36,883 nt of DNA, taken from Thermoplasmata archaeon. GTDB lineage: Archaea; Thermoplasmatota; Thermoplasmata; Methanomassiliicoccales; Methanomethylophilaceae. Below, one piece after another: positions 8,231 to 22,477 of this stretch. The notes under the pieces were generated by a model. That model was not told where the DNA came from. It ran no database searches and saw nothing but the letters and a program-made list of their open reading frames with translations. Each line of letters opens with the position of its first letter. Within the stretch, counting starts at the first letter, position 1. The stretch lies in contig SUST01000013.1 in assembly GCA_015063285.1 (NCBI GenBank), positions 1 through 36,883 of the forward strand. Direction: 5' to 3'. Position numbers and translations under genes: made by a program.

Positions 8231-8699
8231 AGCTGAACAGTTGATCGAAGCCTTGAGGTCCAAAGGGCTCAGGATGTCGGCGGCGGAGTCCTGCACCGGT
8301 GGGATGATAGGCTGCATGATGACCTCCGTTCCAGGTTCTTCTGACGTTTTTCTGGGGACTGCAGTGACATATTCCAACGATGCAAAGGAGCGCATTCTAG
8401 GCGTCAAACATCAGACCTTGATGGATCATGGAGCCGTCAGTATGGAAACGGCATCTGAGATGGCCAAAGGATCTATAGATGCGTACGAAAGCGATGTAGC
8501 GGTTTCGGTTACAGGTATTGCCGGTCCGGGAGGAGCGACCCCGGAGAAACCTGTAGGACTTGTCTATATCGCGGTGGCAGACGGGCCCAGAGTCGTTGTA
8601 ACAAAGAATCTATTCCAAGGAGATAGGCAATCTATTAGAAATCAGACTGCCGTTGAGGCGATCAAACTGTTAATCGAATTGGTCGAGGGGAAGTTATGA
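8214..8699 (+). CDS. pncC: Nicotinamide-nucleotide amidase (CinA C-terminal domain)
   Basis: This is a stand-alone CinA C-terminal domain of about 161 aa. The family deamidates NMN to nicotinate mononucleotide, recycling the by-product of NAD-consuming reactions. Diagnostic stretches are SAAESCTGGMIGCMMTSVPGSS near the N-terminus, AVTYSNDAKERILGV, and SVTGIAGPGGATPEKPVGLVYIA. ATG 8214 or 8217 overlaps the nadM end; GTG 8208 is also possible. The stop overlaps the next gene as ATGA. Position next to nadM supports an NAD-salvage role rather than the older competence/damage-inducible name. Confidence 0.9.
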   Translation: MMPRSEAEQLIEALRSKGLRMSAAESCTGGMIGCMMTSVPGSSDVFLGTAVTYSNDAKERILGVKHQTLMDHGAVSMETASEMAKGSIDAYESDVAVSVTGIAGPGGATPEKPVGLVYIAVADGPRVVVTKNLFQGDRQSIRNQTAVEAIKLLIELVEGKL

Positions 8700-9361
8700 G
8701 GTTCGAGAGACAATTGCCGATATTCGGAGAGGAAGGACAGCAGAAGATAATGTCCGCAGTAGTGGGCGTAGTGGGCTGCGGAGGATTGGGTGTCAATGTT
8801 ATCACACAACTCGTATCCGCCGGGGTATCCCATTTCATTCTTTGCGACCATCAGTCTCCCGAGTTATCGAATCTCAATCGCCAGTTCATTTATTCCGCAT
8901 CTGATTACAGACCGAAATCCGTCATCTCTGCCGAATGGATTCTTACACTCAATCCAAGTGCAGAGGTGCAATCCAATGCGGAACCGCTGACCGAGTTGAA
9001 CGGGGATCTGTTCAGAGGATGTGACATTCTAGTGGACTGCCTGGATAACTTCGAATCCAGAATGATCCTGTCGGATCTGGCTGAGAATATGAACGTACCC
9101 CTTGTTCATGGAGGGGTATCTGGTTTCACAGGACAGATCGCCGTATGCATCCCCGGAAAGACCAAGAGCCTCAGGGATATGATAGGGACGATGAAGAATC
9201 CCGAAGGAATCATACCAACTGTCGGAGCAGGCGTCTCCATCATCGCTTCGATGGAGGCTTTGGAAGTTCTAAAGATAATATCGGGCCTCGGAACAGAAAA
9301 CGAGGGTAAGCTGATCACTTTGGATATGGAATGCTGGATTACAGATTCTGTCCAGTTCTGA
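8696..9361 (+). CDS. E1-like adenylyltransferase (ThiF/MoeB/HesA family)
   Basis: Enzymes of this family adenylate the C-terminal glycine of ubiquitin-fold sulfur carriers or small archaeal modifiers. The 221-aa protein has the ATP-binding GCGGLG loop, the arginine motif NLNRQF, and LVDCLDNFESR with the metal-binding aspartate. It is shorter than MoeB or UbaA. The segment that usually carries the two zinc C-x2-C pairs and the catalytic cysteine is replaced by cysteine-free sequence (KSLRDMIGTMKNPEGI). It can therefore be expected to adenylate, but perhaps not to form the usual thioester. It is the last gene of the regulator-nadM-pncC unit. A possible substrate is encoded at 19584-19775. Confidence 0.85.
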   Translation: MRFERQLPIFGEEGQQKIMSAVVGVVGCGGLGVNVITQLVSAGVSHFILCDHQSPELSNLNRQFIYSASDYRPKSVISAEWILTLNPSAEVQSNAEPLTELNGDLFRGCDILVDCLDNFESRMILSDLAENMNVPLVHGGVSGFTGQIAVCIPGKTKSLRDMIGTMKNPEGIIPTVGAGVSIIASMEALEVLKIISGLGTENEGKLITLDMECWITDSVQF

Positions 9362-17452: not shown

Positions 17453-18802
17453 TCATCTCTTCTCTATAGGTACGTAATCCCTGGGTTCGTGTATGTTGAT
17501 ATAGGCTGGCCTAAGGATCTTGTTGGATGTAATCAGCTCTTCTATGCGGTGTGCGCTCCATCCCACAATTCTGGCGGTTGCGAACAGAGGGGTGAAGACC
17601 TCTTTGGGGATGTCCATCATATCATATACGAATCCGCTGTAGAAATCGACATTGGCGCAAACACTCTTGTTGTTGTGCTTATGAGCCATGATGAGTCCGG
17701 GCGCGATTTTCTCAATGTTCTTGTAATAGGTGTAGTCCTTGGTACGGTTCTTCTCCAAGGCCAACTCTTCCACAAGGGATTTGAAAACCTTAGCACGGGG
17801 GTCGGATTTGGTGTAGATGGCGTGGCCCATCCCATAGATGAGGCCAGAGTTGTCAAATGCCTTTTTGTCCAGAATCTTGTTGAGATAATCTGTAAGGGCT
17901 TCCTCGTCGTTAGGGTCTTTGACATGTTTCTTGATATCGGCCATCATGTCCATGACCTTGAGGTTGGCCCCTCCATGCTTAGGTCCTTTCAATGATGACA
18001 TGGCCGCTGCAACAACGGCATACGTATCAGAACCGCTGGATGTCGTGACCCTTGTTGTGAATGTAGAGTTGTTTCCTCCTCCATGCTCCATGTGCAGGAC
18101 AAGGGCAAGGTCCAGGACCACAGCTTCGAGCTTCGAGTATTTCTTGTTGGGCCTGAGCATGCGTAGGAAATTCTCCGCAGTGGAAAGATTCGGATCAGGG
18201 TTGTGTATGTACATGCTCTGGCCGTTTATGTAGTGGTTGTAAGCATGATAGCTGTAGGCAGTCAGAAGAGGGAAGACTGTGATCAGGTACAAGGTCTGCC
18301 TCAGGACATTGTCCAGAGAGTTGTCAAGTGCATCATCGTCGTATGAGGCAAGGAACAGAATCTCTCTGGATATCGCGTTCATAACGTCCTTACTGGCCGC
18401 TTTCATGATGACGTCTCTAGTGAAGGTCTTCGGCAGTTTGCGGTTTTTATTAAGAATCTCTTTGAACTCATCGAGATCCTTTTCGTTGGGCAGCTTGCCG
18501 AACATGATGAGGTATGCGATCTCTTCGAAACCGTATCTTTTGTTTAGGAATCCTGAGGTAAGGTCCTCTATACTGTATCCGCGATAGCGAAGGATGCCTT
18601 CGCACTCCACTTTCTCCCCATCGATAATGGTTGTACCGTCTACCTGCGAGATCTCCGTAAGTCCTACGATGACTCCGTTGCCCTGTGCGTCGCGCAGACC
18701 TTTCTTCACGTCGTATTTGGAATACTCTGTCGGCTGAAAACTGTCATTCTCCTCGCACATCTTGTGTTTGGCTTCAATAAACTCGACGTATTCCTTCTTC
18801 AT
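17453..18802 (-). CDS. gltA: Citrate synthase (Si type, long form)
   Basis: The enzyme condenses acetyl-CoA and oxaloacetate to citrate, the entry to 2-oxoglutarate and glutamate. The protein (449 aa from ATG 18802) has an N-terminal extension of some 40-60 residues and then the standard fold: GILRYRGYSIEDL, the histidine motifs LHMEHGGGNNSTFT and LKGPKHGGAN, GMGHAIYTKSDPRA with the catalytic histidine, and NVDFYSGFVYDMM with the catalytic aspartate. The length and extension resemble citrate synthases of anaerobic Firmicutes more than the short archaeal form, which may indicate transfer (inference). AGGAG lies at 18815-18811, so ATG 18802 is preferred over GTG 18811. TATA: CTTTAATTAAG, 18854-18844. 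Confidence 0.93.
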   Translation of the reverse strand: MKKEYVEFIEAKHKMCEENDSFQPTEYSKYDVKKGLRDAQGNGVIVGLTEISQVDGTTIIDGEKVECEGILRYRGYSIEDLTSGFLNKRYGFEEIAYLIMFGKLPNEKDLDEFKEILNKNRKLPKTFTRDVIMKAASKDVMNAISREILFLASYDDDALDNSLDNVLRQTLYLITVFPLLTAYSYHAYNHYINGQSMYIHNPDPNLSTAENFLRMLRPNKKYSKLEAVVLDLALVLHMEHGGGNNSTFTTRVTTSSGSDTYAVVAAAMSSLKGPKHGGANLKVMDMMADIKKHVKDPNDEEALTDYLNKILDKKAFDNSGLIYGMGHAIYTKSDPRAKVFKSLVEELALEKNRTKDYTYYKNIEKIAPGLIMAHKHNNKSVCANVDFYSGFVYDMMDIPKEVFTPLFATARIVGWSAHRIEELITSNKILRPAYINIHEPRDYVPIEKR

Positions 18803-18843
18803 ACGTTTCACTCCTGACTTTACACTACTGAATTATTCGACTC

Positions 18844-18951: not shown

Positions 18952-18979
18952 TTGGATTATACATCCAAGGTTTTATATT
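18952..18979 (+). promoter_or_regulatory. Dyad operator abutting the TATA box of the Panacea-like gene
   Basis: TTGGAT (18952-18957) and ATCCAA (18963-18968) form a perfect 6+6 dyad with a five-base spacer, two bases before the TATA element TTTTATATT (18971-18979). A repressor bound here would block TBP/TFB. A second small palindrome, CTATTTATAG, lies at 18932-18941. Confidence 0.5.
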
Positions 18980-19008
18980 GAGTAATCACTATTTTTTATT
19001 GATAACTC

Positions 19009-19593
19009 ATGACTACGCACTCCGCCATCGATGTCGCCAACTTTTTTATCGATTACTACGGGCGCTCCGTAGACCCGATGAACCTGCCCCGTGTTCAGTA
19101 CTTCTGCTATTTCGCACAGGTTGAGAGCCTATGCCGCAACGGAACACCAATTATCGAGGACACATTCAGAGCATATCCTTCCGGCCCCGCACTGACTAGG
19201 TTGGAGTTCTACTACGAGGGTTCCGGCAATATGCCTATCAAGGTCTACAAGGAGTTCGACAGAAGCATCTTCGACAAAGAGGATCTCCAGCTCCTGATGG
19301 ATGTGGCAATCTACTACAACACCTTCTCTACTTCGGAGCTCCAGATCATGACATACGTCAACAACGGTCCATGGCAGTACGTGTACTCTCAGGGGACAGA
19401 TCTGTTGGATATAAGCAACGATTTCATCAAAGCGTTCTATGAGGGGCTTCCGAGGATACCCAACTACAGGGAACAGATCTGGACTGCAATCCACGGATCA
19501 TGCGATATCGAGATCATGCCCGTATTCAAATCTGAAGAAGTGGCTCCAATCGATGTAAATACTCCTAGCGAAGTTACCTCTACATGGGAGTGA
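19009..19593 (+). CDS. Panacea/SocA-like (DUF4065) protein
   Basis: This 194-aa protein resembles the Panacea (DUF4065, SocA/GepA) domain, known as the antitoxin half of many toxin-antitoxin pairs and as a phage/prophage-associated protein. The match is by pattern: AIDVANFFIDYYG at the start; NLPRVQYFCYFAQVESLCRNG in place of the usual LKLQKLLYFAQ helix; the EDTFRAYPSGPALTRL strand in place of the EAWKYGP motif; an LLMDVAIYYNTFSTSELQIMTY helix pair; and GPWQYVYSQG, the family's SPW-x-x-x-Y end. Some 40 extra residues follow. It overlaps the next gene by 10 bp. No toxin-like partner of known type is adjacent. Confidence 0.65.
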   Translation: MTTHSAIDVANFFIDYYGRSVDPMNLPRVQYFCYFAQVESLCRNGTPIIEDTFRAYPSGPALTRLEFYYEGSGNMPIKVYKEFDRSIFDKEDLQLLMDVAIYYNTFSTSELQIMTYVNNGPWQYVYSQGTDLLDISNDFIKAFYEGLPRIPNYREQIWTAIHGSCDIEIMPVFKSEEVAPIDVNTPSEVTSTWE

Positions 19594-19775
19594 TTCAGGT
19601 ATCAGGGAAGGATAACGAGGTACGTAACGGTCAGACGATACAGCAAGCCGTTACGGAGCTCGGTCTTCATCCAGATTCCTATTTGTACTTGGTGGATGGC
19701 AAACCTGTCCCTATGGACACTGTGATCGCGGACGAAATGGTCGTCAAGGCCATGAGGGTCGCATCCGGCGGATGA
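19584..19775 (+). CDS. ThiS/MoaD/SAMP-like ubiquitin-fold protein
   Basis: This 63-aa beta-grasp protein of the sulfur-carrier/small archaeal modifier type ends in Ala-Ser-Gly-Gly, the di-glycine tail adenylated by E1-like enzymes. IQVSGKDNEVRNGQTIQQAV is the first hairpin and helix, LHPDSYLYLVDGKPVPMDT the central strands, and VVKAMRVASGG the last strand and tail. It may serve in tRNA thiolation, molybdopterin or thiamin sulfur transfer, or protein conjugation; the sequence does not decide. The matching E1 candidate is at 8696. ATG 19584 lies inside the Panacea-like gene; GTG 19590 is possible. The neighbouring cob gene converges flush with its stop. Confidence 0.82.
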   Translation: MGVIQVSGKDNEVRNGQTIQQAVTELGLHPDSYLYLVDGKPVPMDTVIADEMVVKAMRVASGG

Positions 19776-20609
19776 TCACAGTCCTGCCATCCTCATCATG
19801 AGGTTGAAGTCGAAACCGTCTTCTTCCGCATGAGTTATCATTTCATCCAGATTTGCGATGAATGCGGAATGGACATCATTACCTTCCAGCTTTCCTTCCG
19901 AAGATGAAAGGGAGTCCTCTTCGGGGAATCTCAGATATTCGTATCTGAGGACGCCGAGGCACTTCATACCAGTCATCGTTTCTATCTGACGTATGGCGGA
20001 TTCCAATATTGAACCATCGCCTCTGAATCTGTTGATTATGAATCCCTTGAGCTGTGGCTTGAGGTCATCAGGGATGAGCTTCCATGTTCCGTATATCGCA
20101 GCGAAGACACCGCCTCTTTCGATATCGCCAATGATAACGGCGGGAACTCCCGTTTCCTTCATCAATCCGACATTGGCCAGATCGGTTTTCATGAGATTGA
20201 GCTCAACAGGGGAACCAGAACCCTCGCATAGGACGAGTTGGTGTCTGGAGTTCATCCTGTCGTAAGCTTTCTTCACCTCTTTTAGGGCCATTTCGCGATC
20301 CATGGGGGAGTCTTTTGTTATGTCCTTGTAGGGCTTACCGTTGAGGACAAGCTGCATCACTCCCTTTCCAGAGGGTTTCAGGAGAACAGGGTTCATATCG
20401 GTCTCGGGGTCCAGACCGGCGGCCCAGGCTTGGAATGCCTGCCCCATACCGATCTCCCCGCCATCCTTCGTGGCTATCGAGTTCAATGACAGGTTGGATC
20501 CTTTGAACGGGGCAACATCGATTCCTTTCCTGTTCAGATATCTGCACATCATGGCGCACACTGTAGTCTTTCCCGCACCGGATGATGTACCCAAGAAAAG
20601 AATGCTCAC
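19776..20609 (-). CDS. Short cobyric acid synthase paralogue without amidotransferase domain
   Basis: This 277-aa protein is homologous to the N-terminal ATPase half of CobQ/CbiP. The P-loop is GTSSGAGKTTVCAMMCRYLN, followed by VAPFKGSNLSLNS, DMNPVLLKPSGKGVMQLVLNGK, CEGSGSPVELNLMKTDLANVG and IGDIERGGVFAAIYGT. The glutaminase domain (no Cys or His motif) is missing. Yet the last residues, FDFNLMMRMAGL, resemble the extreme C-terminus of the long neighbour (DMDIEKLMEIAGV), as if the GATase had been removed from the middle. It overlaps the upstream full-length gene by ATGA. It may act as partner or regulator of the long enzyme, or amidate a different corrinoid intermediate. Confidence 0.82.
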   Translation of the reverse strand: MSILFLGTSSGAGKTTVCAMMCRYLNRKGIDVAPFKGSNLSLNSIATKDGGEIGMGQAFQAWAAGLDPETDMNPVLLKPSGKGVMQLVLNGKPYKDITKDSPMDREMALKEVKKAYDRMNSRHQLVLCEGSGSPVELNLMKTDLANVGLMKETGVPAVIIGDIERGGVFAAIYGTWKLIPDDLKPQLKGFIINRFRGDGSILESAIRQIETMTGMKCLGVLRYEYLRFPEEDSLSSSEGKLEGNDVHSAFIANLDEMITHAEEDGFDFNLMMRMAGL

Positions 20610-22429
20610 TCTTTCACCCCTGCGATTTCCATTAGCTTTTCAATGTCCATGTTGTCCTCGAATACCTTGGCCAGCTTGGAAAGGTTCTCCTCCAATATCG
20701 AATCGTAATCCTCCGCGTTGCTGGTGTCTACGGGTTCCCCTTCATGCTTGACAAAGGATAGGAAGTACTTCCTGAATGCCGGTTTATCGAATATGCCGTG
20801 CTGATAGGTTCCAAAAGTCAGGTCAGCCTCTCTCACAGAACCTTCCGGGACGGGGTCTGCATGGAATCTGCTCAGCATGACCAGAGGCTGCTTCTCATTC
20901 ACCTCTGAGATTCCCATATGGAGCTCGTATCCAGTTATCTCGCCACCGTTTCCGACTGCAAGAACCCCCTCGTTCTGTATGATCTGTTTATCGTATTCTC
21001 CGAATTTCGTGATGTTGTCAAAGAATCCAAGCGCCTCATAAACCTGGGGCTTGCCGTTCTCTATTCCGTTGGAATCATCCAGGATCCTGCCCATCATCTG
21101 GTATCCGCCACATATGCCTACTATCGGGACCTTCTTCCACAGTTTCCTGATCTCATCAGCGATACCAGTCTCCTGCAGCCATATGTAATCAGAGACTGTA
21201 TTCTTGGTTCCGGGCATAACAATGGCGTCGACCCCTTTAAGGTCTTCAGGCCTTTCAACGAAGACAGTGGAGACGTCCTCGAGGAAAAGAGGGTCCAGAT
21301 CTGTGAAGTTGGCCATTCTCGGGAACTTGATGACCCCTATCAGGGACCTCCCTTCTCCCTTGGAATGTACTCCCCTCAGTGCCTCAGAATCCTCACTTGG
21401 GAGCACGACATCGGCATGCGGGATAATGCCGATCACTGGTATGCCCGTGATCCTCTCCAGTTCTTCCGCGCCAGGTTTCAGATTGTCCGTGTTTCCGCGT
21501 ACGTTATTGAGAATGATTCCTTTGATACGCTTCCTGTCCTTCTCAGGGATCAGGTCGATGGTGCCTACTGCGTATGCGAACGAGCCTCCCCATTCGACAT
21601 TGACTACCAGGATCACATTGGCATCCGCAATCTCAGCGGCACGCATATTGGCGATATCCTTGTCATAGATGTTGATCTCCGCTGGAGAACCCGCACCTTC
21701 CATGACGACGCAGTCATATCTGTCCTTGAGGAAATCCACATGTTCTTTCACAATCTGAATTCCTGGCCCGGGGACAAAATCGTTGTAGTATCCTTCCACA
21801 TTGTAATCGGCGAACGGCTTGCCGCATACCATTACCTGCGAAACGGTATCCCCTTTCGGTTTGAGAAGAATCGGATTCATATGTGCATCGGGATTGGTGA
21901 TCCCTGCCGCTTTGGCCTGGAGCACTTGAATCATGGCAATCTCCGCACCGGTTCTGGTGACCTTGGAATTCAGGCTCATGTTCTGGGATTTGAAAGGAGC
22001 TACCAGGTATCCTCTGTTGTGGAGTATCCTGCATATGGCCGCTACCGTGACCGATTTTCCAGCATCGGAAGTAGCACCGACCACCATAAGCGCTTTTCCG
22101 GGTTTCCAGAACTTCTCTTTGGCTGCTTTGAAGATATCGTTGAAACGCTTATCCTTGGCGTCGGTGATACCGAGGCGGTCGATCTCCGAATAGATGAATT
22201 TGACGACTGGGGTCCTGTGTATGAACAGGCAATCTGAGCAGTTCCACACGGGGCCGTGCCTCCCCTGGAGTTCCCAGCCGAAGGTCTTGTCATTACATGG
22301 GAAGAACGGACAATAGCAGAAGGAACAATCCTGGCCTGTGAAGTGTGCCGGATGATAAGGGCAGTTATGGTCTGGTCCGAGCCACCCTCTTTTAATCTCG
22401 TCATTGACCTTCTTCGCAATCTTCTCCAT
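20606..22429 (-). CDS. cbiP: Cobyric acid synthase with N-terminal Cys-rich domain
   Basis: CbiP/CobQ amidates adenosyl-cobyrinate a,c-diamide at four carboxylates to give cobyric acid. The protein is about 607 aa from ATG 22429 (a TTG at 22453 is in frame), over 100 more than usual. The excess is an N-terminal metal-binding-like domain with seven cysteines: NCPYHPAHFTGQDC, SFCYCPFFPC and NCSDC, then IHR. The synthetase domain follows (GATSDAGKSVTVAAICRIL, MNPILLKPKGDTVSQVM, EGAGSPAEINI, VEWGGSFAYAVGTI). Last comes the glutaminase domain with nucleophile motif PIVGICGGYQMMG and TYQHGIFD. The Cys-rich domain resembles the cysteine-rich small domain found at the end of some archaeal CobD proteins. 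Confidence 0.92.
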   Translation of the reverse strand: MEKIAKKVNDEIKRGWLGPDHNCPYHPAHFTGQDCSFCYCPFFPCNDKTFGWELQGRHGPVWNCSDCLFIHRTPVVKFIYSEIDRLGITDAKDKRFNDIFKAAKEKFWKPGKALMVVGATSDAGKSVTVAAICRILHNRGYLVAPFKSQNMSLNSKVTRTGAEIAMIQVLQAKAAGITNPDAHMNPILLKPKGDTVSQVMVCGKPFADYNVEGYYNDFVPGPGIQIVKEHVDFLKDRYDCVVMEGAGSPAEINIYDKDIANMRAAEIADANVILVVNVEWGGSFAYAVGTIDLIPEKDRKRIKGIILNNVRGNTDNLKPGAEELERITGIPVIGIIPHADVVLPSEDSEALRGVHSKGEGRSLIGVIKFPRMANFTDLDPLFLEDVSTVFVERPEDLKGVDAIVMPGTKNTVSDYIWLQETGIADEIRKLWKKVPIVGICGGYQMMGRILDDSNGIENGKPQVYEALGFFDNITKFGEYDKQIIQNEGVLAVGNGGEITGYELHMGISEVNEKQPLVMLSRFHADPVPEGSVREADLTFGTYQHGIFDKPAFRKYFLSFVKHEGEPVDTSNAEDYDSILEENLSKLAKVFEDNMDIEKLMEIAGVKE

Positions 22430-22477
22430 GGTAATCGTGGGATGTATCTGCAAATACAGTTATTACGCATTCGGTCG

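Follow-up and report, generated by a model that had tools for sequence, protein, structure and literature searches.

The gene at 19009-19593 of the window (the whole stretch of DNA analysed here, 36,883 nucleotides of contig SUST01000013.1 from a Thermoplasmata archaeon of the family Methanomethylophilaceae) codes for a Panacea (DUF4065) protein that is probably a toxin-less, derived member of its family, placed under a metal-uptake operator and recruited to bind a cellular protein. It overlaps the start of a gene for a small ubiquitin-like protein (SAMP), which would be expressed from its own promoter, with read-through from the Panacea promoter as a possible addition. Rather than a toxin-antitoxin pair, the two genes seem to be neighbours with perhaps some regulation in common. 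Panacea antitoxins with PemK-like partners (PMC8832971) and archaeal SAMPs (PMC2948915) are both already known, the latter well known, although no description of a Panacea subfamily that lacks the signature residues and lies over the promoter of a ubiquitin-like gene was found in the literature, nor any work linking Panacea with ubiquitin-like proteins. The features of the window that bear on this reading are the following:

8696-9361, plus strand: ThiF/E1-like enzyme (PF00899, 168.9 bits), candidate activator of SAMP
17453-18811, minus strand: citrate synthase (PF00285), divergent neighbour and synteny anchor
18952-18968, no strand: TTGGAT-N5-ATCCAA dyad, operator of a putative genus-wide regulon, mainly of metal uptake
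18971-18979, plus strand: TATA box of the Panacea promoter, TTTTATATT, with the same layout in relatives
18974-18992, no strand: second palindrome, TATATTGANTANTCAATAT, with one mismatch here, covering the TATA box and the expected start region
19009-19593, plus strand: Panacea (DUF4065) protein of 194 aa (PF13274), divergent and toxin-less
19459-19590, plus strand: C-terminal tail of Panacea (residues about 151-194), with low constraint and a disordered end, containing the putative SAMP promoter
19556-19561, plus strand: TAAATA, TATA-like box of SAMP inside the Panacea ORF, with A/T conservation at -27 to -24
19584-19593, plus strand: 10-bp overlap, ATGGGAGTGA, holding the SAMP start and the Panacea stop
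19584-19775, plus strand: SAMP2/ThiS-type ubiquitin-like protein with a C-terminal GG (PF21965, 33 bits)
19776-20609, minus strand: short CobQ-like protein, convergent neighbour and synteny anchor, kept beside SAMP across the family

The assignment of the 19009-19593 product to DUF4065/Panacea, made in the preliminary description from the letters alone, agrees with the profile search, in which residues 33-122 match the Pfam family SocA_Panacea (PF13274) with 35.3 bits, above the curated cut-off of 25.7. Its match to the NCBIfam SocA model is weak (30.9 bits, against an equivalog cut-off of 190), so that it does not qualify as a type VI SocA. Structure prediction gives a confident model of the domain (mean pLDDT 84.9) and a disordered end, with residues 169-171 and 173-191 below 50. 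Among the five SAMP-linked orthologues the pairwise dN/dS of the domain (residues 1-150) is 0.11-0.24, similar to that of SAMP (0.10-0.27), and that of the tail (residues 151-190) is 0.3-1.8, nearly neutral; these values are approximate, because synonymous sites are near saturation between the species compared. The pattern indicates that the fold of the Panacea domain is kept by purifying selection. Neither a sequence search of the PDB with the Panacea family nor a fold search with the model gave a significant match (the best fold hit was DarTG, with an E value of 0.68), and hence they offer no structural clue to the partner of this protein.

What sets the SAMP-linked proteins apart is the loss of residues that are otherwise nearly invariant. 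In an alignment that sets them against 28 further Panaceas (20 from the family, eight from bacterial plasmids and phages), K31 is present in all 28 of the others and replaced in each of the five (Y, M, M, L, M), V61 of the GPV motif is likewise found in 28 of 28 and replaced in five of five (A, G, G, A, A), and H116, present in 27 of 28, is again replaced in all five (Y, Y, F, F, Y). The window protein has Y at the K31 position, GPA for GPV and Y at the H116 position; in the SAMP-linked group W56 is changed to Y, and G59, P60 and W122 are retained. The five thus lack the conserved GPV and the invariant K and H that mark the family, GPV being the motif given as its signature (PMC8832971). In Vibrio harveyi PanA single changes in this motif did not abolish neutralisation, V64S alone being tolerated, and the double change G62A V64S did abolish it (PMC8832971), so loss of the valine alone need not end antitoxin activity. 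With all three residues replaced, antitoxin function of the SAMP-linked Panaceas has presumably been lost.

The downstream gene had been described as a beta-grasp protein with a Gly-Gly tail, and this call is borne out: its 63-aa product ends in ...VASGG and matches Pfam SAMP2 (PF21965) with 33 bits against a cut-off of 27, which places it in the SAMP2 family. The ThiS profile falls just under its cut-off, the haloarchaeal SAMP2 equivalog model reaches 31.7 bits of the 70 needed for membership, and there is weak similarity to the solved SAMP2 chains 4hrs and 2l32. The ThiF/E1-like product of the same genome scores 108 bits with the UbaA model, under its cut-off of 450. A search for further ThiS-family proteins in the genome found none, although it does not exclude other members, because it also missed the window's own SAMP. 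Of 102 family genomes, 96 have SAMP, in single copy in all but one, and in 91 of these 96 it stands without an adjacent Panacea: it is a core, housekeeping gene of the family. At the loci examined it and the short CobQ-like gene usually converge; genus members, both with and without Panacea, commonly have citrate synthase next to it.

The neighbouring genes have some peculiarities of their own. In positions 19776-22453 the short CobQ-type gene (277 aa) adjoins a long one, an arrangement conserved in much of the family, and the long one has an extra N-terminal cysteine-rich domain resembling a zinc finger. Citrate synthase of G054 and G055 (loci L035 and L037) has near its start, at roughly the twelfth codon, an in-frame TAG in place of the window's His (FIESK-TAG-KLCVENDS, compared with FIEAKHKMCEENDS in the window), and the frame otherwise seems intact; archaea of this kind can carry pyrrolysine genes. 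In G062 (L006, positions 1-1134) the citrate synthase beside Panacea is split over two ORFs, by a frameshift, an assembly error or a real break.

The overlap between the two genes reads ATGGGA[AG]TGA and has the identical length of 10 bp in all five species that have the pair. The Panacea stop falls in codon 3 of SAMP, a codon that in the Panacea-less G050, G054 and G055 is AAG or ACG, with no TGA. The preliminary description was therefore right about the overlap, although the translational coupling that it read from it is not a necessity, since SAMP has its own conserved TATA box. The positions -27 to -24 from the SAMP ATG are A/T in 13 of 13 Panacea-less sequences used, and the same four columns are A/T in all five Panacea-bearing genomes, where they lie within codons of the Panacea tail. 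With a matrix built solely from Panacea-less genomes, four of the five sites rank in the top 0.2-4% of positions in their own Panacea ORF, and the window's own site is weaker (top 16%). The combined p is about 3e-5, a value that overstates significance, since related species were treated as independent; the test is supportive and not strict, because the matrix sequences were picked after inspection, which left out seven whose starts were unclear or whose layout differed. No Shine-Dalgarno sequence is present ahead of SAMP in the window, and a TATA box at -27 fits a transcript with almost no leader. Since SAMP retains this box at the usual upstream place, the overlap is no evidence of coupling, and coupling was rejected as the required route to SAMP. 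The overlap appears instead to be a case of overprinting, in which the Panacea frame crosses the native SAMP promoter; read-through from the Panacea promoter may add to SAMP expression.

Of the 102 family genomes, 24 have some relative of Panacea, but just five (the window genome, G064, G062, G059 and G058) carry one in the interval from citrate synthase to SAMP. The adjacency of the two genes in relatives, on which the preliminary description had staked its proposal, is thus real. Within the same supported clade, G050, G054 and G055 have the order citrate synthase-SAMP-cobQ without Panacea, and nothing convincing was found there in the way of Panacea remnants. No other SAMP-linked Panacea was found among 400 further genomes of the class, and a wide scan of named genomes returned only the G064 copy. 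In the flanking-gene tree the eight species of the host clade share a long stem, and G054/G055 branch within the clade next to the window genome and G064 (support 94), although support inside the eight-species clade is partly weak, and the five SAMP-linked Panaceas form one long branch with support 100. One Panacea branch and the nested Panacea-less G054/G055 make a single gain of the gene, and one or more losses, the probable history.

Most of the next-best Panaceas in the family have a small gene overlapping them downstream. At L009, L014, L016 and L017 this gene matches PemK_toxin (PF02452), at L009 under the curated cut-off, and at L010, L011 and L013 it has no Pfam match and its sequence resembles the PemK-matching ones by eye; in G243, of another family of the order, two Panacea copies look alike in having such an arrangement. 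Here SAMP would therefore stand in the place of a PemK/MazF-like gene. The tree weakly suggests that the SAMP-linked Panacea derives from a PemK-linked one (support 69). A different arrangement is seen at L022 (G056:C40), where the Panacea domain is N-terminal in a protein of more than 600 aa with no other Pfam match, possibly a fused partner.

The perfect TTGGAT-5-ATCCAA dyad reported at the TATA box is indeed exact in the window (TTGGAT TATAC ATCCAA, directly 5' of TTTTATATT), where it abuts the TATA box on its 5' side and covers the BRE position. Four of the five Panacea promoters (those of the window genome, G064, G062 and G058) have it in exact form, at -52 to -58 relative to the start codon; in G059 it is degenerate, with three mismatches. 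Around this conserved dyad the intergenic DNA has otherwise diverged. The window genome holds seven exact sites in 1.79 Mb, and such sites occur in 30 of 31 genomes of the genus, with the reversed control pattern at zero in all 31, so the dyad is far from chance against the genome background. The genes adjoining about 50 dyad sites were surveyed, giving 60-odd site-gene pairs. The largest group, 17 pairs (three of them from one triple site), belongs to one family of substrate-binding proteins of the iron-complex type, and the others include FecCD permeases, ABC ATPases, zinc-ribbon/MntP pairs and NifH-like genes. The Panacea promoter thus shares its dyad with transporter genes, as expected of an operator for metal-complex uptake. 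An autoregulatory operator of a two-gene module, as first proposed, does not fit a site that occurs genus-wide, mainly before metal-complex transporters and also in genomes without Panacea, and a module-specific operator was rejected. The SAMP loci of G050, G054 and G055 lack the dyad; in G074, which has no Panacea, it lies between citrate synthase and SAMP, closer to the former. A single DtxR/MntR-type repressor, which includes a FeoA domain, is encoded in the window genome. It is the first candidate for binding the dyad, because in five relatives (G050, G054, G055, G058 and G062) the gene for its orthologue is 4-6 kb away from a dyad site, and a metal signal probably acts on the dyad through it. 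At another locus of the genus (L106, G051:C8:42560-42646), three exact dyads lie within 90 bp ahead of one substrate-binding-protein gene.

The second palindrome is found in four of the five Panacea promoters and at 0-5 sites per genome of the genus, its control pattern being nearly absent. Copies of the form TTGANTANTCAA at L158, L164-L166, L168 and L170 lie beside genes that by eye resemble those for RamA, MttB-like methyltransferases and permeases, and the palindrome possibly belongs to a methylotrophy regulon. The Panacea promoter's combination of the two palindromes is seen again at G000:C2:1652-1688 (L090), where TATATTGAGTAGTCAATAT and TTGGAT-N5-ATCCAA are next to each other ahead of a small gene.

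Several other readings of the locus were weighed. The gene order and overlap resemble those of PanA-toxin pairs, so that the ubiquitin-like protein could be the toxin of a new toxin-antitoxin type, one of the options of the preliminary description; this is hardly credible and was rejected on distribution, since SAMP is a core gene that mostly occurs without Panacea, is kept in the same clade where Panacea is missing, and is here paired with a Panacea stripped of its signature. A decaying remnant of a toxin-antitoxin module, retained by chance, would account for the absence of a toxin alongside, the lost residues and the lack of the gene in G054/G055, but is disfavoured as very improbable, given five intact ORFs, the low dN/dS of the domain even at near-saturated dS and a promoter dyad that has outlasted the surrounding intergenic sequence. 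An anti-addiction role, as a solitary antitoxin against toxins that arrive with PanA-PemK elements, also seems improbable: Panacea neutralises promiscuously (PMC8832971) and modules with an overlapping small downstream gene exist in the same genus, in G066 and G071, but the invariant K, V and H are all gone and the promoter belongs to a metal-type regulon instead of carrying an operator of the toxin-antitoxin type.

A functional module, in which Panacea binds SAMP, its E1 or the tagged proteins and tunes sulfur transfer or delivery to the proteasome, is possible, if unlikely. Adjacency with the identical overlap in five species, similar constraint on both proteins and a possible shared promoter speak for it, as does the precedent of SocA, which promotes SocB degradation as a proteolysis adaptor (PMC8832971). 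The adjacency carries little weight, however, because citrate synthase and cobQ are equally syntenic in the genus, and against the module stand the 91 genomes with SAMP and no adjacent Panacea, the retention of SAMP in place in G054/G055, its own promoter and the failure to find the pair in the 400 class genomes. A new use of the fold, otherwise known from antitoxins, as a metal-responsive adaptor for SAMP once toxin and signature had gone is likewise unlikely. Some regulatory link of Panacea to the ubiquitin-like or sulfur-carrier system, for example through read-through, is possible.

The preferred reading, a toxin-less Panacea recruited to another binding role, rests on the loss of signature residues in a fold kept by selection. 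A Panacea of the PemK/MazF-guarding kind would have been inserted between the citrate synthase and SAMP genes in the ancestor of a small subclade, with a reading frame running over the native SAMP promoter to stop inside the SAMP start, and would have come under the operator of the metal-complex-uptake regulon; most likely it now binds a cellular protein when this regulon is active. SAMP would remain a core sulfur carrier or modifier, transcribed nearly leaderless from its native promoter, and read-through could supply more of it. PanA-PanT modules (PMC8832971) likewise have Panacea upstream of and overlapping a small gene, and the clearest relatives in the family pair with PemK/MazF-like genes; unlike in those modules, no toxin is adjacent here, the downstream gene is a core SAMP with a predicted promoter of its own, the K, GPV and H signature is lost and the promoter sits in a metal-type regulon. 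SocAB, the type VI system of Caulobacter, shares the domain, with a weak NCBIfam SocA match, but the score is far under the SocA cut-off and no toxin partner was recognised here. The small protein is like the archaeal SAMP2/Urm1/ThiS-type proteins in its beta-grasp family match, its C-terminal GG and an E1-like gene in the same genome, and differs in falling under the haloarchaeal SAMP2 equivalog cut-off, as a divergent methanogen member overlapped by Panacea.

The locus is thus a candidate case of an antitoxin domain that has outlived its toxin, with the fold under selection and residues nearly invariant across the sampled bacterial, phage and archaeal Panaceas gone, and it would therefore serve as a natural control for which Panacea residues are needed for neutralisation. 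It also suggests that a core gene can keep working after a gained ORF has come to overlie its promoter, and it reveals in gut methanogens a putative metal-type regulon whose operator is clear.
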